A DNA stretch of 25,019 nt from a virus: positions 1 through 25,019 of the IMG/VR virus record IMGVR_UViG_3300044949_001034; one strand, given 5' to 3'. Under the pieces are notes generated by a model. It searched no databases, was not told the origin of the DNA, and saw only the letters and a list, made by a program, of their open reading frames with translations. Positions 2,090-18,726 of this stretch are shown here, in pieces. How positions within the stretch are numbered: position 1 is the first letter of the stretch; every line of letters starts with the position of its first letter. Both the position numbers and the translations under genes were made by a program.

Positions 2090-2092
2090 TTA

Positions 2093-2121
2093 CGCAAAAA
2101 ATACAACTCTTATAATGAGGA
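2093..2121 (+). promoter_or_regulatory. Promoter P1 of the repeated family
   Basis: CGC at 2093, ATACA at 2101-2105, 5 nt, TATAAT at 2111-2116, then GAGGAG. The ATACA-N5-TATAAT layout matches eight other sites in the window. There is no TTGACA-like hexamer 17 nt upstream of TATAAT. Confidence 0.75.
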
Positions 2122-2143: not shown

Positions 2144-2323
2144 ATGAACCAGTACAAAGCAGAACTCAAAGCTGCATGGATGGCCGCGATGCACCAGATT
2201 TACCCAACCCTGAGCCCCCAGAAGCTCGAGCTTGAGTATTACAAGACCGTCGGCAGGCTCAAGACCATCGGCTTTGCCGGCCTTGCACTGACCGTAGGTT
2301 ACTTCGCCGGAAAGCGTAAGTAA
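2144..2323 (+). CDS. Cassette 1: 59-aa small membrane protein
   Basis: ATG at 2144 follows CCAAGGAGGAAC. The product has a soluble N-terminal helical region (MNQYKAELKAAWMAAMHQIY). It ends in a hydrophobic segment, TIGFAGLALTVGYFAG, followed by KRK, as expected for a tail-anchored protein with the basic C-terminus inside. The gene sits alone between promoter P1 and terminator T1. Its codons are much richer in C/G at third positions (AAG, CTC, GAG, ACC) than those of flanking genes, a trait shared by all the cassettes and the capsid gene. Function unknown. Confidence 0.75.
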   Translation: MNQYKAELKAAWMAAMHQIYPTLSPQKLELEYYKTVGRLKTIGFAGLALTVGYFAGKRK

Positions 2324-2327
2324 CTCC

Positions 2328-2368
2328 AAAAAAGCCTCTAGCACCCTAAACAAGTGCTATGCTTTTTT
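2328..2368 (+). terminator. Terminator T1 of the repeated family
   Basis: AAAAAAGC ... TAGCAC, an 8-nt loop, GTGCTA ... GCTTTTTT. The stem has a small internal loop (CTC against T) and ends in six T residues. The A-tract on the left arm would allow some termination in both directions. Confidence 0.85.
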
Positions 2369-5310: not shown

Positions 5311-5348
5311 ATCTAGTCACCTGGGCATGTGAATAAAAGGCCCCCCTT

Positions 5349-5378
5349 CGCAAGAAATACACACGGTATAATAGGAAT
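5349..5378 (+). promoter_or_regulatory. Promoter P2 of the repeated family
   Basis: CGC at 5349, ATACA at 5357-5361, 5 nt, TATAAT at 5367-5372, AGGAATC. No -35 consensus is visible. The 5311-5348 stretch before it has no terminator of the repeated family. Confidence 0.8.
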
Positions 5379-5399
5379 CAACCAACAACAGGAGGACCC

Positions 5400-5558
5400 A
5401 TGTCCATTCTCAACAAGAAACAGAACGACTTGACCGTCGGAGAGAACATCATCTACACCGCAGTCGCCGCAATTGTGGCGTTCGGAGCGACGATGCTCCC
5501 ATTCATCGGTCTTGGCGCCTGGGCCAAGTACAAAGAGAAGAAGAACAAGATCGACTGA
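5400..5558 (+). CDS. Cassette 2: 52-aa small membrane protein
   Basis: ATG at 5400 follows CAGGAGGACCC. A polar N-terminus (MSILNKKQNDLTVGEN) is followed by a long hydrophobic stretch from about residue 17 to 41 (IIYTAVAAIVAFGATMLPFI) and a Lys-rich tail (KYKEKKNKID). This fits a single membrane pass with the C-terminus inside. It is the only gene between promoter P2 and terminator T2, and uses C/G-ending codons heavily. Function unknown; a role in host membrane takeover or exclusion is conceivable but unproven. Confidence 0.8.
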   Translation: MSILNKKQNDLTVGENIIYTAVAAIVAFGATMLPFIGLGAWAKYKEKKNKID

Positions 5559-5572
5559 CCAAGTCGATTCCA

Positions 5573-5612
5573 CAAAAGCCTCTGGCACTCATACAAGTGC
5601 TATGCTTTTTTT
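5573..5612 (+). terminator. Terminator T2 of the repeated family
   Basis: AAAAGC, CTCTGGCAC, loop TCATACAA, GTGCTAT, GCTTTTTTT. The inner stem carries a G-U pair (GGCAC against GTGCT). Just upstream, ATCGACT pairs with AGTCGAT around the stop codon at 5556-5558, a further small hairpin. Confidence 0.87.
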
Positions 5613-5616
5613 CCTT

Positions 5617-5646
5617 CGCATCTAATACAACTGTTATAATAGGAAT
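5617..5646 (+). promoter_or_regulatory. Promoter P3 of the repeated family
   Basis: CGCATCTA, ATACA at 5625-5629, 5 nt, TATAAT at 5635-5640, AGGAATC. It begins only 5 nt after terminator T2. Confidence 0.8.
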
Positions 5647-5661
5647 CTAACAAGGAGAGAA

Positions 5662-5919
5662 ATGAAACCCAACGAAGACAGACCGAACAACACGCTTGCC
5701 GTCATGGCTGCATGTGGAGCAGGAGTCCTCTACCTCATCGAACGCTCGCGTAGACGCTACAACGAGGCCCATTACCGGCGGCAGATGCTGCTGGCTCAGG
5801 CCAAGAACGAAGCGCTACACAAGTACGTTTTCGATGAAGTCCGGAACCCCAATGCCATGAAGAACATGATCGTGGACGCGAAGTTCATTCAAATCGTCGA
5901 GAGGAACAACATCGACTGA
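5662..5919 (+). CDS. Cassette 3: 85-aa membrane-anchored protein
   Basis: ATG at 5662 follows CAAGGAGAGAA. A short polar N-terminus leads into one hydrophobic segment (LAVMAACGAGVLYLI, about residues 12-26). A strongly basic stretch (ERSRRRYNEAHYRRQ) and a helical cytoplasmic domain follow (LLAQAKNEALHKYVFDEV ... FIQIVERNNID). This is an N-out, C-in anchor with a larger soluble domain than the other cassette proteins. Own promoter and terminator; GC-rich codons. Not recognised. Confidence 0.82.
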   Translation: MKPNEDRPNNTLAVMAACGAGVLYLIERSRRRYNEAHYRRQMLLAQAKNEALHKYVFDEVRNPNAMKNMIVDAKFIQIVERNNID

Positions 5920-5925
5920 CAGATC

Positions 5926-5965
5926 CAAAAAGCCTCTGGCACTCATACAAGTGCTATGCTTTTTT
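5926..5965 (+). terminator. Terminator T3 of the repeated family
   Basis: AAAAAGC, CTCTGGCAC, loop TCATACAA, GTGCTAT, GCTTTTTT. Its T-tract abuts the CGC that begins promoter P4. Confidence 0.87.
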
Positions 5966-5998
5966 CGCGTAAAAAACAACTCCTATAATGAGGAATCA
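5966..5998 (+). promoter_or_regulatory. Promoter P4 of the repeated family, one-base variant
   Basis: CGCGTAA, AAACA at 5974-5978 in place of ATACA, 5 nt, TATAAT at 5984-5989, GAGGAATC. It is the only member lacking the exact ATACA. Confidence 0.75.
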
Positions 5999-6027
5999 AC
6001 CCACCAAACTATGAAGGAGAAGGAATA

Positions 6028-6165
6028 ATGAACCCATATCGTTTCCGCAATTTCGTCGTAGATGTGTTGTTGTTTGCTGTATTTGCAGCGATCAGCAACA
6101 CTCTCGCGATCCTGTGGGTCGTGTGGATCGGCATTCGGACGTACCAGAGGTACGGACGGGCATGA
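6028..6165 (+). CDS. Cassette 4: 45-aa small membrane protein
   Basis: ATG at 6028 follows AAGGAGAAGGAATA. The product is mainly one or two hydrophobic stretches (VVDVLLFAVFAAISNTLAIL, then WVVWIGI), ending RTYQRYGRA. The basic C-terminal tail favours a C-in orientation. It stands alone between promoter P4 and terminator T4. At 45 residues it is the second shortest cassette product. Its holin-like size is notable, but it is far from the endolysin gene and nothing specific identifies it as a holin. Confidence 0.78.
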   Translation: MNPYRFRNFVVDVLLFAVFAAISNTLAILWVVWIGIRTYQRYGRA

Positions 6166-6167
6166 TC

Positions 6168-6206
6168 TCAAAGCCTCTAGCACTCATACAAGTGCTATGC
6201 TTTTTT
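6168..6206 (+). terminator. Terminator T4 of the repeated family
   Basis: CAAAGC, CTCTAGCAC, loop TCATACAA, GTGCTAT, GCTTTTTT. It starts 2 nt after the stop codon of cassette 4. Confidence 0.87.
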
Positions 6207-6211
6207 GTCTT

Positions 6212-6242
6212 CGCATGAAATACACGTGGTATAATAGGAATC
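6212..6242 (+). promoter_or_regulatory. Promoter P5 of the repeated family
   Basis: CGCATGAA, ATACA at 6220-6224, 5 nt, TATAAT at 6230-6235, AGGAATC. It begins 5 nt after terminator T4. Confidence 0.82.
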
Positions 6243-6262
6243 TAACAACAGAAGGAGAATCC

Positions 6263-6451
6263 ATGTCATTCAAAGACTACTTCAGCAAGGAAGAGAAAGA
6301 GAAGCGTGAACAGAATCTGCTCGAACACAAGCGCGAAAACACGAAGCAACTCAAGGTTGTTGCGTGGGTCGCCACTGCGTTCATTGCAGGCGCCACACTT
6401 CTCGGATACGGAGTTGCCAAAAGTATCGGAGAATCATTGGACACTGACTGA
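6263..6451 (+). CDS. Cassette 5: 62-aa small membrane protein
   Basis: ATG at 6263 follows GAAGGAGAATCC; the open frame extends upstream across the promoter, but this is the only start with a ribosome binding site. The N-terminal 30 residues are a highly charged helix (SKEEKEKREQNLLEHKREN). A membrane segment follows (VVAWVATAFIAGATLLGYGV, about 32-51), then a short acidic tail. By charge the N-terminus is likely cytoplasmic, the opposite orientation to the other cassette proteins. Own promoter and terminator. Confidence 0.8.
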   Translation: MSFKDYFSKEEKEKREQNLLEHKRENTKQLKVVAWVATAFIAGATLLGYGVAKSIGESLDTD

Positions 6452-6464
6452 ACAGAGTCGGTTC

Positions 6465-6505
6465 CAAAACCCTCTAGCCCCTTAAACAGGGGCTATGGTT
6501 TTTTT
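6465..6505 (+). terminator. Terminator T5, stem changed with covariation
   Basis: AAAACC, CTCTAGCCCC, loop TTAAACA, GGGGCTAT, GGTTTTTTT. Compared with the other copies, both arms change together (GC/GC to CC/GG and AGCAC/GTGCT to AGCCCC/GGGGCT), so pairing is preserved. Confidence 0.9.
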
Positions 6506-6517
6506 GACTTTTATACT

Positions 6518-6548
6518 CGCATGAAATACATCTCATATAATAGGAATC
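6518..6548 (+). promoter_or_regulatory. Promoter P6 of the repeated family
   Basis: CGCATGAA, ATACA at 6526-6530, 5 nt, TATAAT at 6536-6541, AGGAATC. The segment TTGACTTTTAT before it is shared with P7, but it lies too far upstream to act as a normal -35 box. Confidence 0.82.
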
Positions 6549-6570
6549 AACCTACCAAAAGGAGAACATC

Positions 6571-6795
6571 ATGCGATACTTCGCAATCCCAGTCAACGAG
6601 CAGACCGCTTCCTTGATCTATCAGTTGGGCGTGTTCGACGACCTCATCCCGAACGAGTGTTTGGAAACCCCACACACTTACGTTCTTGGGATTGGTCCGA
6701 GAAGAACGTCTACTCATATCGTCGAGGACTCGGAGTTCGAGAACCTGTACAAGACGAACGGATCGTTTGAGATCAAACTCGTATCGGAAATCTGA
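6571..6795 (+). CDS. Cassette 6: soluble 74-aa protein, paralogue of cassette 8
   Basis: ATG at 6571 follows AAAGGAGAACATC. The product begins MRYFAIPVNEQTASLIYQLG and continues with a beta-rich core (HTYVLGIGPRR, THIVEDSEFENLYK). There is no membrane segment. Its opening matches cassette 8 (MKNVVIPINNNTIHLVTALL), and the two have nearly equal length, so they look like diverged duplicates. A more distant relative may be encoded at 849. It is alone between P6 and T6 with GC-rich codons. Function unknown. Confidence 0.82.
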   Translation: MRYFAIPVNEQTASLIYQLGVFDDLIPNECLETPHTYVLGIGPRRTSTHIVEDSEFENLYKTNGSFEIKLVSEI

Positions 6796-6805
6796 TCCCA
6801 AAACC

Positions 6806-6847
6806 AAAAGCCTCTGGCACCTTAAACAAGTGCTATGCTTTTTTTTT
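6806..6847 (+). terminator. Terminator T6 of the repeated family
   Basis: AAAAGC, CTCTGGCAC, loop CTTAAACAA, GTGCTAT, GC followed by nine T residues. The loop sequence is a hybrid of the T1 and T5 types. Confidence 0.88.
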
Positions 6848-6859
6848 GACTTTTATGCT

Positions 6860-6890
6860 CGCATGAAATACATCTCCTATAATAGAACTA
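6860..6890 (+). promoter_or_regulatory. Promoter P7 of the repeated family
   Basis: CGCATGAA, ATACA at 6868-6872, 5 nt, TATAAT at 6878-6883, then AGAACTA instead of AGGAATC. The core is intact. Confidence 0.8.
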
Positions 6891-6907
6891 CTACACAGGA
6901 GAAACCC

Positions 6908-7030
6908 GTGAACTACACAGAAATGTCCATCATCGAAATGACAATCACGAACGGCATCTTGCTGGTGTCGGCTTTGGCCGTCATCGCAGGCTACCACGTG
7001 GTTCTCAACAAGATGAACAAGAAGAAGTAA
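6908..7030 (+). CDS. Cassette 7: 40-aa small membrane protein
   Basis: GTG at 6908 follows ACAGGAGAAACCC. The product, MNYTEMSIIEMTITNG... then ILLVSALAVIAGYHVVL and a Lys-rich end (NKMNKKK), is a minimal single-pass membrane protein with the C-terminus predicted inside. It is the shortest gene of the array and the only cassette starting with GTG. It stands alone between P7 and T7. Function unknown. Confidence 0.78.
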   Translation: MNYTEMSIIEMTITNGILLVSALAVIAGYHVVLNKMNKKK

Positions 7031-7047
7031 CGAGAACCCAAGTAATT

Positions 7048-7084
7048 CAAACCCTCTAACACCCTAACAAGTGTTATGGTTTTT
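7048..7084 (+). terminator. Terminator T7, covarying stem
   Basis: CAAACC, CTCTAACAC, loop CCTAACAA, GTGTTAT, GGTTTTT. The inner stem AACAC/GTGTT and outer ACC/GGT both differ from T1-T4 on the two arms at once. Its final T residues overlap the start of P8. Confidence 0.88.
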
Positions 7085-7115
7085 CGCATGAAATACAACT
7101 CTTATAATAGGAATC
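7085..7115 (+). promoter_or_regulatory. Promoter P8 of the repeated family
   Basis: CGCATGAA, ATACA at 7093-7097, 5 nt, TATAAT at 7103-7108, AGGAATC. It follows terminator T7 with no spacer at all. Confidence 0.82.
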
Positions 7116-7132
7116 AGCCGACCAGGAGGAAT

Positions 7133-7351
7133 ATGAAAAACGTTGTAATCCCAATCAACAACAATACCATCCACCTCGTAACTGCTTTACTCAATGGACA
7201 CACGCCGAGTATTGACGAAAAAGAACCAACGTTCTTGATCTTCGATGACTCCGATAACGTCTGGGAAGTGATGAGCAGCCATGAGTTTTGGATGATACGA
7301 AACACTGAGAGAGGATGGATCAAATCAACCATCGAACTCTGGCATAACTGA
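7133..7351 (+). CDS. Cassette 8: soluble 72-aa protein, paralogue of cassette 6
   Basis: ATG at 7133 follows CAGGAGGAAT. The protein begins MKNVVIPINNNTIHLVTALL, close in pattern to cassette 6, then has a beta/alpha core (PTFLIFDDSDNVWEVMSSHE) and ends STIELWHN. No membrane segment. Codon use is less GC-rich than in the other cassettes, so it may be the more recent arrival. It is the last cassette of the array, ended by T8. Confidence 0.82.
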   Translation: MKNVVIPINNNTIHLVTALLNGHTPSIDEKEPTFLIFDDSDNVWEVMSSHEFWMIRNTERGWIKSTIELWHN

Positions 7352-7352
7352 T

Positions 7353-7394
7353 CAAAACCCTCTAACACCCTAACAAGTGTTATGGTTTTTTTTT
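7353..7394 (+). terminator. Terminator T8 of the repeated family
   Basis: AAAACC, CTCTAACAC, loop CCTAACAA, GTGTTAT, GG followed by nine T residues. It is nearly identical to T7, with a longer A- and T-tract. It closes the array. Confidence 0.9.
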
Positions 7395-7413: not shown

Positions 7414-7698
7414 ATGAGTTCAACTGTTCCCAGCATAACAACACATGAGTATTGCGGTTATATTCTAGAAAGTTCTATAACATCTAAGACAATGTGTGTC
7501 TTAGCCAGATACCACGATGGTGGTCATATCTATGGTACATTTGAAATACCTTTAGTGACCGTTACACTAGAAAAAACAAACCTTGCAGTTGACCACATAA
7601 AGTTCATTCTAACCGCATACGACTTATGGGGGGAAGACGAAACATATACCATGCCGGACGGTACGGTTTACACAAAAAATCAAACTAAAGGCGGATAA
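7414..7698 (+). CDS. Hypothetical 94-aa protein
   Basis: ATG at 7414 follows AAAGGAGAAACC; there is no repeated-family promoter before it, so its transcript must start elsewhere or come from read-through of T8. The product looks beta-rich ([30 protein letters not shown]). It has a helical part ([16 protein letters not shown]) and a tail with [11 protein letters not shown]. Its stop overlaps the helicase start, so the two are coupled. No family was recognised. Confidence 0.75.
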
Positions 7699-9050: not shown

Positions 9051-9141
9051 GCTTTTTGACTAGTTTCTTGGTCTTTGTGGGTAGTAAAAACATACTCTGA
9101 CCAGGGCTTTTGTGTTTTCTTTGGTTAACAATTTACTTCAT

Positions 9142-9299
9142 GTCAAAAATTTAAATTTTCGATTAAAAACTTTTTCAAAATCTCTAAGTTTATACTCTCT
9201 TATATACGCGCGATAAAAAATATATAGAGTATAAGAGTTTAGAGAGTATAAACTTCACGATTTTAAAAAAGTTTTTAAGCGTTTTTTTAAATTTTTGAC
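9142..9299. repeat. 158-bp imperfect inverted repeat, possible origin or control region
   Basis: Two 59-bp arms (9142-9200 and 9241-9299) are inverted copies with about 50 of 59 positions matching, around a 40-bp AT-rich centre containing CGCGCG. The innermost 15 bp (AAGTTTATACTCTCT and its complement) are perfect. GAGTATAA occurs three times here in one or other orientation. No gene overlaps it. AT-richness, iteron-like repeats and the nearby helicase fit a replication origin or a complex operator, but neither is shown. Confidence 0.6.
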
Positions 9300-9334
9300 A
9301 AGTACACATTCGAGACAAAAATGGCGGTAAAATC

Positions 9335-9876: not shown

Positions 9877-9890
9877 GAGAGTATAAACTT
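9877..9890 (+). repeat. Third copy of the 14-mer GAGAGTATAAACTT
   Basis: The same 14-mer occurs at 9242-9255, and inverted at 9186-9199 in the large inverted repeat. This copy ends one base before promoter P9 begins, where an activator or repressor would bind. The flanking ACGATTTT is also shared with the origin-like region. Confidence 0.6.
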
Positions 9891-9891
9891 T

Positions 9892-9921
9892 CGTACAAAA
9901 TACATATGTTATAATAGGAGA
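9892..9921 (+). promoter_or_regulatory. Promoter P9 of the repeated family
   Basis: CGTACAAA, ATACA at 9900-9904, 5 nt, TATAAT at 9910-9915, AGGAGAG. Unlike P1-P8 it heads a long operon: two nucleases and the RNA polymerase-like gene. It has no paired terminator nearby. Confidence 0.75.
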
Positions 9922-10258: not shown

Positions 10259-10787
10259 AAAACACGCCTTTTTAAGCCCAAGCCAACATCACTGGGTTAA
10301 TTATAATGAACAGAAGCTAGAGGCGAGATTTGTTTCTTGGGCGGCTTCAGTTCGAGGTACAGATCTACACAATTTAGCTCACGAAGCAATACGGCTTGGA
10401 GTAAAACTTTCTTCGTCAAACAAGACGCTTTCGATGTACGTCAACGACGCAATAAATTACAAGATGACTTGCGAACAAACCTTGTATTATTCAGATAATT
10501 GTTTTGGTTCGGCAGATACTATATCTTTCCGAAAGAACAAACTAAGAATACACGATTTGAAAACCGGAATTACGGCCGCTCACCATCGTCAACTTGAGAT
10601 TTATGCTGCGCTTTTTTGTTTGGAATACTCTGTTGACCCATTAGACATTGACATTGAGTTAAGAATTTATCAAAGTGGCGAAGTTCGGATCTACGATGCC
10701 GACCCAGAAGTTATAATAAACATCATGAATACAATTATCGATTTTGACATGAAAATTCAATTTATGAAGGAGCGGGGGATTGTATGA
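10227..10787 (+). CDS. RecB/Cas4-like PD-(D/E)XK exonuclease, 186 aa
   Basis: The N-terminal part has LSPSQHHW and RGTDLHNLAHEAI (helix with a conserved His), as in RecB-family nucleases. The catalytic core is GSADTISF (D97), LRIHDLKTG (D110, K112) and RQLEIYAAL (Q122), the canonical motifs II to IV of this family. No C-terminal iron-sulfur cysteine cluster is evident, unlike Cas4. It probably processes DNA ends during replication or recombination. The start overlaps the upstream nuclease, and its end overlaps the next gene by 4 nt (ATGA). Confidence 0.85.
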   Translation: MNFNVHSELSKKHAFLSPSQHHWVNYNEQKLEARFVSWAASVRGTDLHNLAHEAIRLGVKLSSSNKTLSMYVNDAINYKMTCEQTLYYSDNCFGSADTISFRKNKLRIHDLKTGITAAHHRQLEIYAALFCLEYSVDPLDIDIELRIYQSGEVRIYDADPEVIINIMNTIIDFDMKIQFMKERGIV

Positions 10788-13453
10788 TAATTGATGAAGA
10801 TGATTACCTGGCGCACTATGGAACTCCCCGAAAGAGTGGTAGGTATCCTTACGGTTCTGGTGGAGACCCGGCGCAGAGAAACAGAGAGTTTCTTGATATC
10901 GTAGACCAACTCAAGCGAGATGGTTTAAGTGATGTCGAAATTGCTGAAGCGTTTGAAATTAAAACCACGCAACTTCGTGCAAGACGAACCATTGCGAATA
11001 ACGAACGCAAAAGAGAACAAATTGCAGAAGCAGAAAAGTTAAAAGAAAAAGGTTGGTCTAACTCTGCGATTGGTAGACAAATGGGAATTAACGAATCTTC
11101 GGTTCGTGCCCTTTTGGCACCAGGTGCTAAGGAAAAGTCCGAAGCTCTTCTTTCGACAGCGAACATGTTAAAAGAACAGGTTGACATTCATAAGTACGTT
11201 GACGTTGGTCGCGGTGTTGAAAACTATATAGGTGTTACAAAAGAGCGACTTCGTTCAGCGATTGCTATTTTAAAAGAAGAAGGCTACCGAATCCACTACA
11301 CTGCCGAAAAAGGTCTTGGTACAGGAAAAGATGTTTCTAAGATAGTTTTAACTGGCGCTGAAACAACTGGAAAAGAAGTCTACGCCAATCGAGATAAGAT
11401 AATGATCCCGACAGTGGAAACTTCTGATTATGGGAAAACCTTTTCAAACACTTTAGGAATGCTTCCGCCAATTTCGGTAGATCCGAAAAGGGTAGGTATT
11501 TTGTATGCAAAAGATGGAGGCGCTCAAGCGGATGGTGTTATTTACGTTCGTCCGGGAGTTCCAGATGTATCCTTGGGTAATAACAAATATGCACAAGTTC
11601 GAATTCTTGTCGACAAGACGCATTATTTGAAGGGTATGGCGTTATACAAAGACGACCTTCCAAAAGGTATCGATCTTTTGTTTAATACGAATAAAGAAGA
11701 CACGGGTAATAAACTCGATGCACTAAAGCCTATTACAGATGTTCCAGACAATCCATTTGGCGCAATTGTTAGACAACTTAGGCAGGAGCTCCCAGATGGT
11801 ACTAAGGGCAAACTTACCTCGGCTATGAACCTTGTTAATGAAGAGGGTGACTGGGAAAAATGGTCTAGAACTCTTTCCAGACAAGTACTCTCGAAACAAT
11901 CACCGTCCTTGGCTAAGGAACAACTAGACATTAATTATGAAAACCGAATAGCCGAATATCAGTCTATTATGTCGATGACAAACCCAACAGTTAGGCGAAA
12001 ACTACTTCAAGAGTTTAGTGACTCAACGGATTCTTCTGCTGTGCATTTAAAAGCCGCATCAATGCCAAGACAGGCAACAAAAGTTATTCTTCCCGTTAAT
12101 TCATTAAAACAAAACGAAGTGTATGCGCCAGGGTTTAAAGACGGTGAATTGGTAGCTTTAATACGGTTCCCTCATGGTGGAACGTTTGAGATCCCAGAAT
12201 TAACGGTTAATAACCGACACGCCCCTGCACGTAAACTTTTAGGTGACACAAAAGATGCGATTGGCATTAACAGTCGCGTTGCAGAAAGACTTTCTGGTGC
12301 CGACTTTGACGGGGACACGGTTTTAGTGATTCCGAATAACAACAAAAGAATTAAAAGCACCCCTGCGCTTGAGGATTTAAAAGACTTTAATCCTAGAGAA
12401 AAGTATAGACAGTACGATGGTATGAAAGTCATATCAGAACAACATATGCAAAAACAGATGGGTGACATTACTAACTTAATCACCGATATGACGATTAGGA
12501 AAGCGACTGCATCTGAATTGGCGCGTGCTGTTAAACACTCTATGGTTGTTATTGACTCACACAAACACAAACTCGATTACAAACAGTCGGCTAAAGACAA
12601 TAATATATCACAGCTTAAACTAAAGTATCAGGGTTCTGCTGATAGTGGTGCTACTACTATCTTCTCACTTGCTGAGTCGCAAGCGCAAACCCTCGACAGA
12701 AGGCCTAGGCGTGCTGCTGACGGTGGTCCCATTAATAAATTGACTGGCGCACTAGAGTATGAGTATACTGGCGCTACCTACACGGACAAAAAGGGTAGGG
12801 TTAAAGCCAAGCCGGGACCAAAGTCTGTTAAACTTGCCGAAACACGGGATGCAAGTACGCTTTCTTCTGGGACCCCTATAGAGCGGGTGTATGTAAGCTA
12901 CTCTAACAACATGAAGGCGTTAGCCAATCAGGCTAGATTAGACATGATTAACACCCCCCGTATAGTCAGATCCCCAAGTGCGGCTAAAGTGTACTCAACA
13001 GAGGTGAGTCAGCTAAAAGCTAGCCTAACTATTGCTCTAAGAAACGCCCCCCTCGAAAGAAAAGCCCAGTCCCTGGCTGGTACACAGTCGAGAGCGATCA
13101 TAGAGGCAAATCCAGGAATGGATAACACACAAAGAAAGAGAATTGAAGCACAATCCCTTTCTGAAATGCGTATAAGAGTTGGTGCCAAGAAGATTAAGAT
13201 AGAGATAACTCCTAAACAATGGGAGGCTATACAAGCTGGTGCTATTGCTGATAGTGTGTTGAAGTCTATACTAGACAACGCTGACATGGAAATAGTTAGA
13301 TCTCTCGCTTTACCAAAGACAGAATCTATTATGTCTAGCTCAAAGATTAGACAGGCAAAGAGAATGCTTGATAATGGATACACTCGAACAGAAGTAGCCG
13401 ACCAGCTTGGTGTTTCAGTTAAGACATTAGATCGTGCCACAGTCGATTCGTGA
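10784..13453 (+). CDS. Single-chain RNA polymerase-like protein (double-psi barrel, DFDGD), 889 aa
   Basis: Residues 503-515 read RLSGADFDGDTVL, with D507, D509 and D511 in the metal-binding DxDxD of multisubunit-type RNA polymerases (NADFDGD in beta-prime). Upstream, LIRFPHGGTFEIPELTVNN and the IGIN segment mirror the barrel strands leading to that loop. Downstream, VVIDSHKHKLD (about 588-598) resembles the VD-x-x-K segment of YonO/RNA-dependent-polymerase relatives. The N-terminus has HYGTPRKSGRYPYGSG (11-26) and two helix-turn-helix-like segments (about 43-70 and 83-113); another ends the protein (861-889). The family occurs in other actinobacterial and Firmicutes phages, usually as hypothetical. 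Polymerase activity is inferred. It may be packaged in the virion. Confidence 0.75.
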   Translation: MIIDEDDYLAHYGTPRKSGRYPYGSGGDPAQRNREFLDIVDQLKRDGLSDVEIAEAFEIKTTQLRARRTIANNERKREQIAEAEKLKEKGWSNSAIGRQMGINESSVRALLAPGAKEKSEALLSTANMLKEQVDIHKYVDVGRGVENYIGVTKERLRSAIAILKEEGYRIHYTAEKGLGTGKDVSKIVLTGAETTGKEVYANRDKIMIPTVETSDYGKTFSNTLGMLPPISVDPKRVGILYAKDGGAQADGVIYVRPGVPDVSLGNNKYAQVRILVDKTHYLKGMALYKDDLPKGIDLLFNTNKEDTGNKLDALKPITDVPDNPFGAIVRQLRQELPDGTKGKLTSAMNLVNEEGDWEKWSRTLSRQVLSKQSPSLAKEQLDINYENRIAEYQSIMSMTNPTVRRKLLQEFSDSTDSSAVHLKAASMPRQATKVILPVNSLKQNEVYAPGFKDGELVALIRFPHGGTFEIPELTVNNRHAPARKLLGDTKDAIGINSRVAERLSGADFDGDTVLVIPNNNKRIKSTPALEDLKDFNPREKYRQYDGMKVISEQHMQKQMGDITNLITDMTIRKATASELARAVKHSMVVIDSHKHKLDYKQSAKDNNISQLKLKYQGSADSGATTIFSLAESQAQTLDRRPRRAADGGPINKLTGALEYEYTGATYTDKKGRVKAKPGPKSVKLAETRDASTLSSGTPIERVYVSYSNNMKALANQARLDMINTPRIVRSPSAAKVYSTEVSQLKASLTIALRNAPLERKAQSLAGTQSRAIIEANPGMDNTQRKRIEAQSLSEMRIRVGAKKIKIEITPKQWEAIQAGAIADSVLKSILDNADMEIVRSLALPKTESIMSSSKIRQAKRMLDNGYTRTEVADQLGVSVKTLDRATVDS

Positions 13454-13489
13454 TACAACGTATAGATCAATAAGTAGGTGAGTATAGTA

Positions 13490-13747
13490 ATGATACGTTC
13501 AATGTTGACGACAATAGATAATCCATACGATCCGTTTGATCAGTTTGAAGAATGGTATACTTGGGACTTCAATTCAAACTACCACACCCCCTCCTTCCTG
13601 GCTAGGGTGGCAAACACTTCAGAATCTTTAACTGAAAATCTACAGTCAATAGAGATTGATAGAGCTATAGATGAAATTTTAAAAGAAAATGTTCTTGGTA
13701 TCTATAGAAAAGTAAGTCGAGAAGTAGAAGAATCGGAATTGGGTTAG
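13490..13747 (+). CDS. Conserved phage protein upstream of packaging genes, 85 aa
   Basis: ATG at 13490 follows TAGGTGAG; a GTG at 13478 in frame is less favoured. The opening MLTTIDNPYDPFDQFEEWY...YHTPSFLARVANTSE and ending LGIYRKVSREVEE match a small acidic family very common in actinobacterial and Firmicutes phages near the lysis and terminase genes. Its role is not known to me. The gene follows the polymerase-like gene by 36 nt and precedes the GC-rich repeats. Confidence 0.85.
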   Translation: MIRSMLTTIDNPYDPFDQFEEWYTWDFNSNYHTPSFLARVANTSESLTENLQSIEIDRAIDEILKENVLGIYRKVSREVEESELG

Positions 13748-13768
13748 ATTAGGTTACTAAAGATGTTG

Positions 13769-13805
13769 GAGGGGGGGAGGGGTCCCGCGAATCATACCCC
13801 CCCTC
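13769..13805. repeat. G7/C7 hairpin, possible G-quadruplex
   Basis: GAGGGGGGG at 13769-13777 pairs perfectly with CCCCCCCTC at 13797-13805. The G-rich arm continues AGGGG. Such a strong GC hairpin is out of character with the AT-rich surroundings and sits next to the cos-like repeat. Confidence 0.7.
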
Positions 13806-13812
13806 TGCATCG

Positions 13813-13862
13813 CCCGCCTCCCAAAAATATCCCCGGGGGGACTTTTACATTAATGTGTTTGG
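13813..13862 (+). repeat. cos-like GC-rich direct repeat, copy 1
   Basis: CCCGCCTCCCAAAAATA, then CCCCGGGGGG, then TTTTACATTAATG. It is closely matched by the copy at 14094. C-rich/G-rich cores of this sort upstream of the terminase genes of HNH-type phages often mark the cohesive-end site, but cleavage here is not shown. Confidence 0.65.
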
Positions 13863-13867
13863 TTTAA

Positions 13868-14134
13868 ATGGAGAAGCAGGCTGGTATGACTGACGAACGT
13901 GCCCGGATTATCGTAGCAATGCGCCAACGCTTTGCCGCCTACTGGGCGCTGACGCAGCAGGAGCGTGACTTGCTGGACGACGGGCGACTCATCCCGGTCA
14001 AAGAAACCGAGGAACTGTTCGAGCAGGCAATGGGCGGTGATGAGTTAACAACATGGCCGAAACGAAGTTTCCGCGTGGTCGCATGGCAGGCCCCCCGCCT
14101 CCCAAAAATAACTCCGGGGGAAATTTTACATTAA
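13868..14134 (+). CDS. Hypothetical 88-aa GC-rich gene between cos-like repeats
   Basis: ATG at 13868 lacks a clear ribosome binding site; an alternative ATG at 13886 (MTDERARIIVAMRQRFAAYW) is possible. The product is helical and charged (TQQERDLLDDGRLIP). Its last dozen residues (RLPKITPGEILH) are encoded by the second cos-like repeat, so the repeat supplies the stop codon. Its base composition is clearly more GC-rich than the neighbouring genes. It looks like an inserted gene carried with a duplicated flanking repeat. Not recognised. Confidence 0.6.
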   Translation: MEKQAGMTDERARIIVAMRQRFAAYWALTQQERDLLDDGRLIPVKETEELFEQAMGGDELTTWPKRSFRVVAWQAPRLPKITPGEILH

Positions 14135-14146
14135 TGAGTTTTTTGG
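14094..14146 (+). repeat. cos-like GC-rich direct repeat, copy 2
   Basis: CCCGCCTCCCAAAAATAAC, then CCGGGGG, then TTTTACATTAATGAG. It lies 281 bp after copy 1 and encodes the end of the intervening gene. The palindromic C/G core is shorter here than in copy 1. Confidence 0.65.
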
Positions 14147-14152
14147 AGCGGG

Positions 14153-14353
14153 ATGAAGCGTAAACCTAGTTTTACTTTTGGGATGACGAAGGAAGAGCAC
14201 GACAGTCTTGCTGCTCTGTCCAACAGACCCCTAACGCAAGGTCCAATCCAACTAAGAGACATCTCACAAACCCAAACTATTCTTAACAAGAAAAGTTTCA
14301 TGGATTCGTTATTTGACGAGTACACTAAAAGGAGTAACGATGACAATCGCTAA
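14153..14353 (+). CDS. Hypothetical 66-aa protein upstream of endolysin
   Basis: ATG at 14153 follows GGAGCGGG. The product (MKRKPSFTFGMTKEEHDSLA... ending DEYTKRSNDDNR) is basic at the start, then polar and probably helical, with no membrane segment. It therefore does not look like a holin. It overlaps the endolysin start by 14 nt. Codon use is AT-rich again. Not recognised. Confidence 0.7.
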   Translation: MKRKPSFTFGMTKEEHDSLAALSNRPLTQGPIQLRDISQTQTILNKKSFMDSLFDEYTKRSNDDNR

Positions 14354-15047
14354 GGAATTTACAGATTGGCAGAAGAAAGGTAAATCTGCTTTTGCTCAGT
14401 TTAATAGAGAGTCACCCGCGCTTAGCTCGCTTCGAAACTATCTTATACCAACCTATGGTGGAGCAGACTTAGGAATTTACGGCGTTCGTAGAGTTAGAGG
14501 TAGTTTTCTTTCATGGTCAAGCCATTCGTTTGGGTCGGCTTGGGACTATTCATATCGTGGACTTCCAAGGGAGGTCGCGATTAAAATTATTGAGTTTCTT
14601 ATTAGTAACTCTGAAGAACTTGGCGTTCAGGCTATCCACGATTACGTTGGTGGTCGTATCTGGCGCGCTAACCGATCTGGAGATAAGAACGGTGGTTGGA
14701 AGAAGCAACGCAAAAACAAAGAGGGCATGGGTCAAACTTGGGGTGACTGGTTACATATCGAAGTTAATGAGCGCAAGTGGGCTGATGGTCGTAGCGTTTT
14801 GGAAAAGCTTGGTTCGGACACTCGACGAGTTCTTCGTCGTGGAGACTCTGGAGACGATGTAAAAACCGTTCAGTTTGTTCTTCGTGACAAAGCCGGTCAG
14901 ACCATAACTGTTGATGGTAAGTTTGGTTCACAAACTGAAATGGCCGTCCGAAACGTTCAGGCATTTATAAGTGGTGGTAAGGGACCAGTCACGGGTATCG
15001 TTGACGCCGAGTTCTGGAAAGTTATTGACGTTTTAAACCAAAGTTAG
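14340..15047 (+). CDS. Endolysin: M15-type peptidase plus peptidoglycan-binding domain, 235 aa
   Basis: ATG at 14340 follows AAAAGGAGTAACG. The catalytic domain carries SSHSFGSAWDY (H62, D69) and GDWLHIEVN (H139, E141). These match the SxHxxGxAxD and HxE zinc-binding pattern of M15 D,D- or L-Ala-D-Glu peptidases that cut peptidoglycan stem peptides. Residues about 165-230 (LRRGDSGDDVKTVQFVL ... VDGKFGSQTEMAVRNVQAF) form a PG_binding_1 repeat that anchors the enzyme to the wall. No signal peptide, so release would need a holin, which was not recognised nearby. Confidence 0.88.
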   Translation: MTIAKEFTDWQKKGKSAFAQFNRESPALSSLRNYLIPTYGGADLGIYGVRRVRGSFLSWSSHSFGSAWDYSYRGLPREVAIKIIEFLISNSEELGVQAIHDYVGGRIWRANRSGDKNGGWKKQRKNKEGMGQTWGDWLHIEVNERKWADGRSVLEKLGSDTRRVLRRGDSGDDVKTVQFVLRDKAGQTITVDGKFGSQTEMAVRNVQAFISGGKGPVTGIVDAEFWKVIDVLNQS

Positions 15048-15061
15048 AAGGCGGAGTTTTT

Positions 15062-15301
15062 GTGGATTTAAAGTGGAAAGAAAAAGCTGCGTGTAAGGGT
15101 ATGGATCCCGCAATATTTTTTCCAAAACGTGGGGAGGATTCAAGGCCTGCCAAAAAAGTTTGCGCTTCGTGCCTCGTTTCCAACGAGTGTCTTGAGTATG
15201 GATATTTATACGGCGACAGGAATGGAATTTGGGGTGGGAAGAGCGAAAGACAAATGCGACAGGAACGCCGAATCCGAAGGTTGAGTTTGACCGCGGCATA
15301 A
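15062..15301 (+). CDS. WhiB-like iron-sulfur regulator, 79 aa
   Basis: GTG at 15062 follows AAGGCGGAG. The WhiB signature is complete: C11, then CASC at C34/C37 and C43 for a [4Fe-4S] cluster. The turn GIWGG (55-59) and a basic C-terminal tail (RQMRQERRIRRL) that contacts DNA follow. WhiB proteins bind the primary sigma factor and adjust promoter choice; phage versions such as mycobacteriophage TM4 WhiB are known to repress host whiB genes. It sits between the endolysin and packaging genes and is strong evidence of an actinobacterial host. Confidence 0.93.
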   Translation: MDLKWKEKAACKGMDPAIFFPKRGEDSRPAKKVCASCLVSNECLEYGYLYGDRNGIWGGKSERQMRQERRIRRLSLTAA

Positions 15302-15327
15302 CCAGTTTTATATTGGGAAGGAGAAAC

Positions 15328-15672
15328 ATGGCTTCGCAAAAAAGAGACACAACAAAGCGGCCGGTAACTCGCCCAGCTACAACAGTTGAAGGTCGTGAGA
15401 ATCAGCTTATAGCTCATGCCATAGATTTAGCAGAGCGACAACTAAAAGATGGAACCGCGTCCTCACAAGTTATAAGTCATTATTTAAAACTCGGTTCCAC
15501 AAGAGAGCGTTTAGAGCAAGAGCGACTACAAAAAGAGAACGAACTCTTAAGTGCTAAAGTCGAACAACTAGCCTCAGCAAAGAGAATTGAAGATCTATAC
15601 AAGACTGCGCTTAACGCAATGCGATCCTATGCTGGGCAAGAAACTATGGATGATGAAGACGATGATGACTAG
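15328..15672 (+). CDS. Likely small terminase subunit, 114 aa
   Basis: ATG at 15328 follows GGGAAGGAGAAAC. The protein has a basic disordered start and a helical centre (ENQLIAHAIDLAERQLKDGT, SSQVISHYLKLGSTRERLEQ). A coiled-coil stretch comes next (about 60-95), then AMRSYAGQE and an acidic tail of Asp/Glu. This is the pattern of a conserved family found immediately upstream of HNH and large terminase genes in phages of Gram-positive bacteria. The TerS assignment rests on position and family pattern; DNA binding is not shown. Confidence 0.65.
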   Translation: MASQKRDTTKRPVTRPATTVEGRENQLIAHAIDLAERQLKDGTASSQVISHYLKLGSTRERLEQERLQKENELLSAKVEQLASAKRIEDLYKTALNAMRSYAGQETMDDEDDDD

Positions 15673-16072
15673 AACCTACACAGAACTAACAAATTTTAGT
15701 TCCTTTGAGGATAGGTATAACTATTTAAAACTCGGCGGTCGCGTTGGGGAGTCGACGTTTGGGTTTGACCGTTATATTAACCAATCTCTCTACCATTCTC
15801 GAGAGTGGAAAACTGTAAGGAATCATGTAATTATTAGAGATCTTGGGTGTGATCTTGGTGTTTCTGGCTACGAAATAAATAGCACTCTTTTAGTTCACCA
15901 CATGAACCCTATAAATGTTCATGACATCTTAGGTGGAGAAGATGATATTTTAGATCCTGAGTTTTTGATAACAACAACTAGTTTAACACATAATGCAATT
16001 CACTATGGAGATCCTAAACTTCTTCTTACCGCTCCAAAGGTTCGAACTCCAGGCGATACAAAACTCTGGTGA
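15662..16072 (+). CDS. HNH endonuclease of the packaging module, 136 aa
   Basis: The start is one of two adjacent ATGs at 15662 and 15665, overlapping the upstream gene by 11 nt. The beta-beta-alpha metal site is visible as LLVHHMNPINVHD (H79, H80) with the distal SLTHNAIHYGD (N111, H114). Upstream, YINQSLYHSREWKTVRNHVIIRD is the usual lead-in. HNH proteins next to HK97-type terminases are needed for cos cleavage and packaging in several phages. This location, after the TerS-like gene and downstream of the cos-like repeats, fits that role. Confidence 0.85.
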   Translation: MMTRTYTELTNFSSFEDRYNYLKLGGRVGESTFGFDRYINQSLYHSREWKTVRNHVIIRDLGCDLGVSGYEINSTLLVHHMNPINVHDILGGEDDILDPEFLITTTSLTHNAIHYGDPKLLLTAPKVRTPGDTKLW

Positions 16073-16104
16073 TATTCTATTATACTTAAGAAGGGAGACC
16101 ACCA

Positions 16105-16449
16105 ATGGAACAAAGCATATTAATAAGTACTAAAAAAATTTTAGGGCTTTCTGAAGAGTACACGGCGTTTGATTTGGATATTATAACCCATATAAACTCA
16201 GCATTTGCGACACTGTCGCAACTTGGCGTTGGTCCAACAAACGGGTTTATGATTGAAGACGCATCAGACGTTTGGTTAGATTTTATTCCAAATAGCAGCA
16301 TTCTTAGTTTAGTAAAAACTTATGTGTTTCTAAAAGTTAGAATGTTATTTGACCCACCAGCAACTTCATTTTTAATTACAGCTATGAACGAACAGATAAA
16401 AGAGTATGAGTGGCGTATAAGCACACTGAGAGAAAGTTCAATTTTATGA
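16105..16449 (+). CDS. Head-tail connector (gp6-like adaptor), 114 aa
   Basis: ATG at 16105 follows AAGAAGGGAGACCACCA. The sequence ILISTKKILGLSEEYTAFDLD...INSAFATLSQLGVGP, then KTYVFLKVRMLFDPPATSF and MNEQIKEYEWRIS, matches a widespread all-helical connector family of siphoviruses that docks under the portal. The length is typical. It is encoded before the large terminase rather than after the capsid gene as in HK97; this rearranged order is shared with many Gram-positive phages. Confidence 0.82.
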   Translation: MEQSILISTKKILGLSEEYTAFDLDIITHINSAFATLSQLGVGPTNGFMIEDASDVWLDFIPNSSILSLVKTYVFLKVRMLFDPPATSFLITAMNEQIKEYEWRISTLRESSIL

Positions 16450-16964
16450 CAAATCAAAAAGAACTACTCAATAGTCTTTCAAACATGAGCGGTAATTCGT
16501 TGGCTATTGGTAAAGAATTTGTTAGTGAAACAATTTCACACGTCGGAGTTCGTGGAATGCGTTGGGGCGTTCGTCGATCTCGGTCCGCAAAGTACGCGGC
16601 TAAAGCAGAGCGAAAAGCAGAGCGTAAAAATATAGAAGGAAAAGCAAACGTTAAAACCATGACGGATGCTGAAATGAAAACCATTATTAATCGGATAAAA
16701 CTCGAGCAAGAGTATAAAAAACTTACAACTAAGCCAACTAAGTTAGACGCTGGTAAAAAGATTGCTGGAAAAATTTTAGTCACGGCCGTTACTACTGGTG
16801 GTTCAAAAATAGTTGAGTCGTATCTTGGTCCGATTGTTCAAAAAGCCATGCTCGACAAGGCAAATACTAAAAAGTTAGTTTCACTACCCAACTCTAAAGC
16901 TATATTACCCAAAGGCTCGCCTTTACCGCCTCCTCCGCGTATGCCACCTCGACCAAACATTTAA
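16446..16964 (+). CDS. Phage protein with HxGxxGMRWGVRR motif, 172 aa
   Basis: ATG at 16446 overlaps the previous stop (ATGA). Residues about 36-47 read HVGVRGMRWGVRR-like, a tag found in many phage virion-associated proteins. A basic helical segment follows (AAKAERKAERKN). Then comes a domain with TMTDAEMKTIINRIKLEQEY (also common in such proteins), a hydrophobic stretch near AGKILVTAVTTGG and a proline-rich tail (PLPPPPRMPPRPNI). A minor head or internal virion protein is plausible. The exact function is unknown. Confidence 0.75.
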   Translation: MTNQKELLNSLSNMSGNSLAIGKEFVSETISHVGVRGMRWGVRRSRSAKYAAKAERKAERKNIEGKANVKTMTDAEMKTIINRIKLEQEYKKLTTKPTKLDAGKKIAGKILVTAVTTGGSKIVESYLGPIVQKAMLDKANTKKLVSLPNSKAILPKGSPLPPPPRMPPRPNI

Positions 16965-16980
16965 AAGGTTAGTTTTTTAA

Positions 16981-18726
16981 ATGACTCTATCAAATACGGC
17001 AACTCCAAAATATTATAGTGAATTTCGTGATTCGGTTCTTCGCGGCGACATCCTTGTAAATCGTGAAGTCTCATTAGAGATGAATCGAATTGATGATTTA
17101 ATTCGCAACCCAAATATTTATTATGATGACCAAGCCGTTGAGGGGTTTGTTAAGTACTGCGAAAAAGAACTAACTTTAACAGACGGTAGCGATCTAATTC
17201 TTCTACCCTCATTTAAAGTTTGGGCCGAACAACTTCTTGGTTGGTATTACTTTGTTAAAAGAACCGTTTATAAACCAGGGAAAAACGGGGCTAAAGGTTC
17301 CTATGTAACAAAAGAAATTAAAAAGAGGCTGGTAACAAAACAGTATTTGATTGTTGCCCGAGGCTCAGCCAAATCGATGTATGCTATGTGTATACAGGCA
17401 TACTTCTTAAATGTCGACACTGCGACAACACATCAAATCACAACGGCGCCGACGATGAAACAAGCCGAAGAAGTGATGTCGCCATTCCGAACGGCAATAA
17501 CAAGAGCAAAAGGACCTCTATTTAAGTTTTTAACTGAAGGGTCCATACAAAACACTACTGGATCTAAAGCCAATAGGGTTAAACTCTGGCCGACAAAAAA
17601 GGGTATTGAAAACTTTTTAACTGGTTCGTTGCTTGAAATTCGACCGATGTCAATCAATAAACTTCAGGGTTTAAGACCTAAAGTTTCAACGATAGACGAA
17701 TGGTTGTCGGGAGACATTCGGGAAGATGTTGTCGGTGCAATTGAACAAGGCGCATCGAAGTTAGATGACTATTTGATTGTCGCTATAAGTTCAGAAGGAA
17801 CTGTAAGAAACGGTTCTGGCGACACAATCAAAATGGAACTTGCTAGCATTTTAAAAGGCGACTATGAGGCGCCGCACATCTCCATCTGGCATTATAAGTT
17901 GGATGACATATCAGAAGTTGCCGACCCGTCTAAATGGATAAAGGCAAATCCGAACATTGGATTAACCGTTACTTATGACGTTTATCATCTCGATGTCGAA
18001 AGAGCCGAAAAAGCTCCGGCGTCAAGAAATGATATTCTAGCTAAACGATTCGGAATACCTACCGAGGGTTTTACATACTTCTTCACATATGAAGAAACAA
18101 TGGTACACAGACCTAGAGATTTTTGGGGACTACCTTGTTCTTTGGGTCTCGATCTATCCCAAGGTGACGACTTCTGCGCTTTTACCTTCTTATTCCCTCT
18201 GGGTAACGGGTCTTTTGGTGTAAAGACTAGAAGTTATATAACAACTTTGACTTTGATGAAACTTCCTGGTGCCATGCGAGCAAAGTATGAACAATTTCTA
18301 TCTGAAGGAAGTTTACATGTTTTAGAGGGAACTATTTTAGATATGATGACTGTTTATGATGATTTAGATGCGTTTATAATACAGAATGGGTATGACGTAC
18401 GCTCGGTTGGATTCGATCCGTATAATGCGAAAGAATTTATAACTAGATGGGAAACAGAAAACGGCCCGTTTGGTATCGAAAAAGTTATACAAGGCGCAAA
18501 AACTGAGTCAGTTCCACTTGGAGAACTAAAAATACTAAGTGAAGAAAGAAAACTCATATTTGATCAAGATCTTATGAGTTTTGCTATGGGAAACGCAATA
18601 ACATTAGAAGACACTAATGGGAACAGAAAACTTCTAAAAAAAAGAGCGCAAGAAAAAATCGATAATGTTTCTGCTTTGATGGATGCTTACGTTGCCTATA
18701 AATCCAATAAAGATTCATTCGAGTAA
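16981..18726 (+). CDS. terL: Terminase large subunit, 581 aa
   Basis: The N-terminal ATPase has an atypical Walker A VARGSAKS (125-132, K131) and Walker B VSTIDEW (D239, E240). The RNase H-like nuclease domain has acidic residues D391 (LGLDLSQGDD), D479 (VGFDPYNAKEF) and D568 (SALMDAYVA). The 581-residue length and the motif order are those of HK97/Gram-positive-type terminases. The enzyme pumps DNA into the prohead and cuts concatemers, together with the TerS-like and HNH proteins. The ribosome binding site is weak (AAAAGG far upstream). Confidence 0.95.
   Translation: MTLSNTATPKYYSEFRDSVLRGDILVNREVSLEMNRIDDLIRNPNIYYDDQAVEGFVKYCEKELTLTDGSDLILLPSFKVWAEQLLGWYYFVKRTVYKPGKNGAKGSYVTKEIKKRLVTKQYLIVARGSAKSMYAMCIQAYFLNVDTATTHQITTAPTMKQAEEVMSPFRTAITRAKGPLFKFLTEGSIQNTTGSKANRVKLWPTKKGIENFLTGSLLEIRPMSINKLQGLRPKVSTIDEWLSGDIREDVVGAIEQGASKLDDYLIVAISSEGTVRNGSGDTIKMELASILKGDYEAPHISIWHYKLDDISEVADPSKWIKANPNIGLTVTYDVYHLDVERAEKAPASRNDILAKRFGIPTEGFTYFFTYEETMVHRPRDFWGLPCSLGLDLSQGDDFCAFTFLFPLGNGSFGVKTRSYITTLTLMKLPGAMRAKYEQFLSEGSLHVLEGTILDMMTVYDDLDAFIIQNGYDVRSVGFDPYNAKEFITRWETENGPFGIEKVIQGAKTESVPLGELKILSEERKLIFDQDLMSFAMGNAITLEDTNGNRKLLKKRAQEKIDNVSALMDAYVAYKSNKDSFE

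Follow-up and report, generated by a model that had tools for sequence, protein, structure and literature searches.

Tandem one-gene cassettes with a shared promoter motif and predicted terminators in a clade of actinophage-related viruses

Introduction

Operons are the usual mode of gene expression in compact phage genomes, in which single inserted genes that have their own promoter and terminator are known as morons. Morons can be expressed outside the lytic programme, for instance from a prophage. For the Gordonia phage Vardy, the same region has been described to contain five copies of a 50-bp TATAAT motif, along with six terminators and thirteen genes whose products have membrane or signal segments (PMC9671010), and the same motif, with a size given as 50 bp or 43 bp in cluster DJ, is present in the Gordonia phage Conley (PMC9671010, PMC10868162). 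Clustering of small transmembrane genes at the centre of the genome is reported for CC, AM, AW, AU and DJ in the available part of a 2026 survey (PMC13313380). The middle promoters of phage T4 depend on appropriation of sigma by MotA and AsiA, with a box near -30 that replaces the -35 element and a requirement for a near-perfect -10 element (PMC2988021), and the RNA polymerase YonO of SPbeta transcribes late genes from a promoter that the respective study left undetermined (PMC5467207). Here we describe the virus record IMGVR_UViG_3300044949_001034, analysed over its whole length of 25,019 bp (hereafter, the window), in which eight predicted promoter-gene-terminator units, or cassettes, share a promoter sequence and a terminator hairpin, and compare it with related viral genomes. 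We consider it probable, and the best overall explanation of the data, that these are autonomous one-gene cassettes read by a phage-encoded factor and exchanged by recombination between the repeats.

Anatomy of the cassettes

One cassette of the window is solitary (2091-2368) whereas the other seven lie in tandem (5347-7392), and all eight units listed in the initial annotation were recovered (Table 1). Each contains a single open reading frame (ORF) and is closed by a hairpin with a T tract. The units look insulated, as had been proposed from their sequence. The promoters share the sequence TTCGCAnnAWWWACA-N5-TATAATRR with fixed spacing: a TTCGCAnnAAAnACA-like element precedes each TATAAT, the ACA is separated from the hexamer by exactly 5 nt in the window copies, and the conserved upstream bases occupy positions -33 to -18. 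The pattern CGCANNAAANACANNNNNTATAATNRA produced nine forward matches in the window, and none on the reverse strand or in the control. A sigma-70 consensus scan of the window recovered none of the eight cassette promoters because no -35 hexamer is found at the usual distance, a TTGACA-like sequence 16-18 nt before TATAAT being absent. Thus, the promoters that had been annotated as near-identical are indeed alike among themselves but do not belong to the sigma-70 class.

The eight terminators have a common two-part stem, with folding z-scores from -2.4 to -4.7 for single sequences. The lower stem ends in AAAAGC/GCTTTT or AAAACC/GGTTTT, a 3x1 internal loop (CTC/U) separates it from the upper stem, and at least five T follow each hairpin. 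Not only is pairing maintained in 98% of the cells of the eight-terminator alignment, with three pairs altered on both sides in a compensatory manner, but the covariation score exceeds those of all 500 shuffles, and pairing is lost when the partners are slid. By their predicted structure, these hairpins are intrinsic terminators. Terminator stems are similar within a genome and different between genomes; the hairpin loop CYAACA[AC]G recurs across genomes (the window and loci L063, L127, L096 and L131) despite the differing stems.

Recurrence across the clade

Through its 889-aa (amino acid) polymerase and its helicase, the window was placed in a clade with Streptomyces phages Bing and Rima, Arthrobacter phages Circum, Michelle and Qui, Gordonia phage Nithya and Rhodococcus phage ReqiPepy6; Lactococcus phages 1706 and P162 and Faecalibacterium phage FP_oengus are distant members. 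Altogether 52 related viral loci were collected by helicase; metagenome contigs in general are possibly incomplete or mis-assembled. With a promoter matrix trained on the window and applied iteratively to 21 related contigs, 200 matches were obtained, compared with 1 in the reversed controls, and within each contig the matches lie on a single strand. Between 3 and 33 sites occur in each of the named actinophages, again confined to one strand (Qui 33, Pepy6 16, Poco6 14, Count 13, Michelle 12, Bing 10, Vardy 9, Circum 9 and Nithya 7). When only the upstream element was searched for and TATAAT was not required, there were 140 matches on the coding strand versus 4 on the other strand, and nearly all of the matches have a TATAAT-like hexamer at spacing 5. 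Lactococcus P162 retains TTTACA-N5-TATAATG (12 matches at spacing 5 versus 0-3 at other spacings); a search of Lactococcus 1706 and FP_oengus did not find the motif. The initial annotation had named relatives with intact gene order and no conserved promoters as an outcome that would speak against it; we found the opposite, namely clade-wide conservation of the motif.

Across bacterial genomes, the exact form of the motif is rare. In 257 Gb of bacterial genomes (a collection of 84,980 species) it occurs in only six contigs and so is not, on this sequence evidence, a general host element; three of the six contigs, which come from bacterial genome bins, carry the polymerase, and another is a fragment of 4.1 kb in which several sites occur. 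At least 120 stretches in a viral collection contain this form.

The arrangement around the promoters also recurs. In 157 adjacent promoter pairs, for which ORFs and hairpins were called by simple rules, a single ORF bridges 115, and a hairpin with a T tract precedes the next promoter in 97. The longest run, in Qui, comprises ~22 consecutive cassettes with ~300-bp spacing. Tandem single-gene units, which had been annotated as unusual, are so among phages generally but not in the clade to which the window belongs, where they are common.

Products of the cassettes

Using a Kyte-Doolittle hydropathy of at least 1.6 over 19 residues as a crude membrane test, we detected a clear membrane segment in four of the eight cassette proteins of the window (genes starting at 5400, 6028, 6263 and 6908), whereas two others (2144 and 5662) are borderline; none of the 29 other window ORFs reaches the cut-off. 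Of the six membrane products initially counted among the eight, four are therefore clear and two only borderline by hydropathy. In the clade as a whole, the median length of the cassette proteins (n=117) is 68 aa, with 55% of them clearly hydrophobic by the same measure. Pfam and PHROGs searches yielded neither a family nor a functional assignment for the cassette proteins of the window. The two soluble products (6571 and 7133) had been annotated as paralogues, but BLASTP gives no alignment between them and the Smith-Waterman score against shuffles (p = 0.018) is uncorrected for 28 pairs, so that paralogy is not established. The product of cassette 3 (6028..6165) has homologues inside cassettes of two related genomes (G016 and G019). 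A shared membrane protein of 91-99 aa (PHROG 5818), absent from the window, is the product of the first cassette in many genomes of the clade. The GC content at third codon positions (GC3) of cassette genes is above that of long ORFs in 9 of 13 genomes, which is consistent with, without proving, strong expression in a GC-rich host.

Cassettes are not confined to protein-coding genes: one drives a tRNA in ReqiPepy6 and, by appearance, the same holds for Nithya and P162. In ReqiPepy6 (locus L096, 14296-14551), a promoter of this class has no ORF downstream; the sequence that follows it, beyond the tRNA cassette, is a possible small-RNA gene.

Cassettes as exchangeable modules

The Arthrobacter phages Djungelskog and DoctorPepper, ~99% identical locally, differ by exactly one 298-bp cassette, and the junction in DoctorPepper lies within AAAGCTAGGACCC, where the left part of one terminator copy continues into the right part of the following copy. 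The cassette is present in 11 of 13 near-identical phages and absent in Shiba and DoctorPepper, which share an identical junction. In Shiba, furthermore, another cassette gene is represented by a diverged allele that is confined to its cassette, with near-identical flanks. G001, the nearest relative of the window, lacks window cassette 2085-2326 (promoter and gene) and conserves the downstream gene; despite the missing promoter and gene of this solitary cassette, it retains the orthologous terminator hairpin (L063 ~7428-7466). The first cassette of the window array matches the last one of G001 (41% identity over 34 aa), which points to a relocated cassette. The alignment of relatives at this locus, recommended in the initial annotation, thus revealed differences of whole cassettes with the cleanest breakpoint in a terminator repeat; both the Djungelskog/DoctorPepper junction and the G001 difference support the modular gain and loss of genes by recombination between repeats that had been envisaged there. 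Collectively, the comparisons support the view that cassettes are lost or swapped as units among related phages, in the cleanest case by recombination within terminator repeats.

That one indel junction and one allele exchange respect the cassette limits would also fit repeats that are mainly recombination or mobility sites, comparable to the cassette boundaries of integrons, with the transcription signals secondary. We regard this as very improbable. Compensatory changes maintain hairpin pairing and the T tracts are kept as well, the stems differ between genomes, and each cassette has a promoter of its own, unlike integron cassettes; moreover, no attC-like site was noticed, nor an integrase among the window ORFs that were read, although no search aimed at integrases was made.

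Reading of the promoter

In the explanation that we favour, a cassette would be an autonomous single-gene transcription unit. Transcription would start ~7 nt past the clade-specific promoter, a ribosome binding site ~10-40 nt downstream would direct synthesis of one small, often membrane-associated protein, and the hairpin with its T tract would end the transcript ahead of the next promoter. The fixed upstream element (~-33 to -18), its constant distance to the -10 hexamer and the lack of a -35 hexamer suggest that a phage-encoded factor reads the element; by analogy with T4 MotA, this reader would most likely be a DNA-binding appropriator acting together with the host RNA polymerase, the two-barrel polymerase of the phage being less likely. 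Given their location among the non-structural genes, the cassettes probably exert their effect prior to late gene expression, for instance by altering the host envelope or excluding rivals. Since neighbouring terminators and promoters are near-identical, homologous recombination or strand annealing between the copies could delete, duplicate or exchange whole cassettes and leave the neighbours undisturbed.

Ordinary host sigma-A promoters would require no such factor, the upstream element then being no more than ancestral sequence that recently duplicated cassettes have kept. The near-perfect TATAAT and the strong ribosome binding sites agree with this view, as does the greater likeness of leader copies within a genome than between genomes. 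Nevertheless, it appears improbable, given that the element and its 5-nt spacing are conserved across host genera and in isolated promoters that stand apart from arrays while the surrounding sequence is not, and that the -35 hexamer is absent.

Several observations weigh against a phage appropriator working with the host polymerase on clean one-gene units. The intervals of 42 of the 157 promoter pairs are not filled by one ORF, so that a clean gene or hairpin is not universal, and the promoters of Lactococcus P162 lack strong upstream hairpins. No phage-encoded appropriator was identified: the WhiB-like regulator of the window (15062-15301) was considered as a general reader of the motif and rejected, as only the window and G001 carry one among 29 related genomes. 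Finally, the -10 hexamer varies at position 2 (17 of 140) but never at position 3. This pattern of tolerance is unlike sigma-A usage and therefore weakens the part of our explanation that involves the host polymerase.

The same pattern, with T3 invariant and A2 relaxed, favours an alternative reader, namely the two-barrel RNA polymerase encoded by the window itself (10784-13453). By motif and modelled fold class, this protein is a two-barrel polymerase: SGADFDGD is invariant in 27 homologues, and a Foldseek search with an AlphaFold2 (AF2) model retrieved QDE-1 (E=1.1e-8) and phage P74/P23-45-type RNA polymerases, including gp62 of P74 (8e-7), with TM-scores of ~0.3 that are low and thus limit the structural match to the fold class. 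If this QDE-1/YonO-like enzyme, possibly carried in the virion, read the promoters, the motif would be its own promoter. Consistent with this, the motif is long, rigid and rare across bacterial genomes, its core is retained from actinophages to Lactococcus P162, the polymerase is found on 29 of the 30 large contigs picked by the motif alone as well as on half of the motif-bearing contigs from bacterial bins, the protein contains helix-turn-helix (HTH) segments and falls in the fold class of known two-barrel polymerases, and the annotators of Pepy6 and Poco6 label the 1706 homologue of the polymerase a structural protein. However, the terminase (29 of 30) and the helicase (28 of 30) track the motif equally well, so that it marks the clade rather than the polymerase specifically; Lactococcus 1706 and FP_oengus have the enzyme without the motif, and no copy was found in SPbeta, the carrier of YonO. 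In addition, TATAAT is the host -10 consensus, and SPbeta YonO transcribes late genes (PMC5467207) whereas the cassette promoters avoid the structural region. We hold a role of the phage polymerase to be possible but rather unlikely.

Other features of the window

The polymerase gene is near the right end in Pepy6 and many relatives, whereas in the window (13453-16981) and in G001 the terminase region follows it; either a genome end lies within the record or the gene order is rearranged. In the A+T-rich gap between the helicase gene and a NUMOD4-domain gene (9141-9300), there is a 60-nt inverted repeat with arms 85% complementary and 40 nt apart, which is a candidate replication origin; long inverted repeats occupy the same place in G001 (L063 ~14340-14530). 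In G001 (L063 7200-7430), moreover, a piece of sequence similar to the N-terminal part of the polymerase is joined to the end of a different gene, either through partial duplication or as an assembly chimera. A repeated ACATTAATG element (696, 13847 and 14128) was considered as a late promoter and rejected, as relatives do not conserve it. A 48-nt direct repeat (13813-13860 and 14094-14141, 90% identical) contains TTTTACATTAATG and is likewise not conserved in relatives.

Table 1 Predicted features of the cassettes and related elements in the window (PWM, position weight matrix)
Feature	Coordinates	Strand	TATAAT position	Evidence
Solitary-cassette promoter	2091..2119	+	2111	PWM match, alignment
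Solitary-cassette gene, 59 aa, C-terminal hydrophobic segment borderline	2144..2323	+		hydropathy
Solitary-cassette terminator, bipartite hairpin	2330..2368	+		covariation, folding z-score
Cassette 1 promoter	5347..5375	+	5367	PWM match
Cassette 1 gene, putative membrane protein, 52 aa	5400..5558	+		hydropathy
Terminator 1	5573..5611	+		covariation, folding z-score
Cassette 2 promoter	5615..5643	+	5635	PWM match
Cassette 2 gene, 85 aa, hydrophobic segment short (borderline)	5662..5919	+		hydropathy
Terminator 2	5927..5965	+		covariation, folding z-score
Cassette 3 promoter, abutting T tract of terminator 2	5964..5992	+	5984	PWM match
Cassette 3 gene, putative membrane protein, 45 aa	6028..6165	+		hydropathy
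Terminator 3	6168..6206	+		covariation, folding z-score
Cassette 4 promoter	6210..6238	+	6230	PWM match
Cassette 4 gene, putative membrane protein, 62 aa	6263..6451	+		hydropathy
Terminator 4, stem variant GCCCC/GGGGC	6466..6504	+		covariation, folding z-score
Cassette 5 promoter	6516..6544	+	6536	PWM match
Cassette 5 gene, predicted soluble, 74 aa	6571..6795	+		hydropathy
Terminator 5	6806..6844	+		covariation, folding z-score
Cassette 6 promoter	6858..6886	+	6878	PWM match
Cassette 6 gene, putative membrane protein, 40 aa, start GTG	6908..7030	+		hydropathy
Terminator 6, T tract overlapping TTCGCA of next promoter	7048..7085	+		covariation, folding z-score
Cassette 7 promoter	7083..7111	+	7103	PWM match
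Cassette 7 gene, predicted soluble, 72 aa	7133..7351	+		hydropathy
Terminator 7	7354..7392	+		covariation, folding z-score
Ninth promoter of the class, outside the array, ahead of VRR-nuclease/exonuclease/RNA polymerase genes	9890..9918	+		PWM match
Two-barrel (DFDGD) RNA polymerase-like protein, 889 aa, candidate promoter reader	10784..13453	+		PHROG 4291 E=0; motif; AF2 model

Significance and comparison with known systems

Throughout a whole clade, phages appear to set aside a region of the genome for independent single-gene units that draw on one reusable promoter and terminator, and this offers a countable natural system for the acquisition of accessory genes without disturbance of their neighbours. 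The promoter motif can serve as a marker of the clade in metagenomes and is a concrete sequence with which to decide between the two-barrel polymerase and a modified host polymerase as the reader. Should the tentative assignment of TTCGCAnnAWWWACA-N5-TATAATRR as the promoter of the two-barrel polymerase of the clade, driving insulated, exchangeable one-gene cassettes, prove correct, a YonO/QDE-1-like polymerase of this kind would for the first time have a promoter sequence assigned to it.

The motif reported for Vardy in cluster DJ belongs to the same promoter class, with nine sites in Vardy, nine in the window and near-identical patterns, and there too, small genes in the middle of the genome encode products with membrane or signal segments and are accompanied by predicted terminators. 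The DJ reports (PMC9671010, PMC10868162) do not cover the rigid upstream spacing, arrays of single genes in tandem, their occurrence in several clusters and hosts or recombination at the level of cassettes, and promoters and terminators are not described in the available part of the 2026 survey, which covers the same phages and genome region (PMC13313380). We found no earlier account of the fixed upstream element, of one-gene units in tandem arrays, of their spread over hosts or of their recombination, although these may be mentioned in the 2011 ReqiPepy6 paper.

The SAS and ESAS (start-associated and extended start-associated sequences) of cluster K mycobacteriophages likewise precede many small non-structural genes as repeats specific to each genome, but SAS are linked to the translation start, the changes seen in the DNA inverted repeats of ESAS give no support for RNA pairing, and tandem terminators are lacking (PMC3203893), whereas the cassette promoter lies upstream of the start and the cassette hairpins maintain RNA pairing. 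With T4 middle promoters the cassettes share a phage-specific upstream box in place of the -35 element and a near-perfect -10; the MotA box, however, is 12 +/- 1 bp from the -10 (PMC2988021), while the cassette element ends 5 nt from it and differs in sequence. No MotA or AsiA homologue was identified in the phage, although no search aimed at motA or asiA was made. As in SPbeta, the window is predicted to encode a single-chain two-barrel polymerase of the YonO/QDE-1 type, the link of which to the cassette motif is a candidate one. Integron gene cassettes are promoterless, carry attC and have an integrase nearby, whereas each phage cassette has a promoter. The likeness to morons is in the predicted promoter and terminator around one gene and in presence or absence between otherwise similar genomes; unlike morons, the cassettes stand head to tail with homogenised signals, number up to ~22 in Qui and recur in the same region of the genome.

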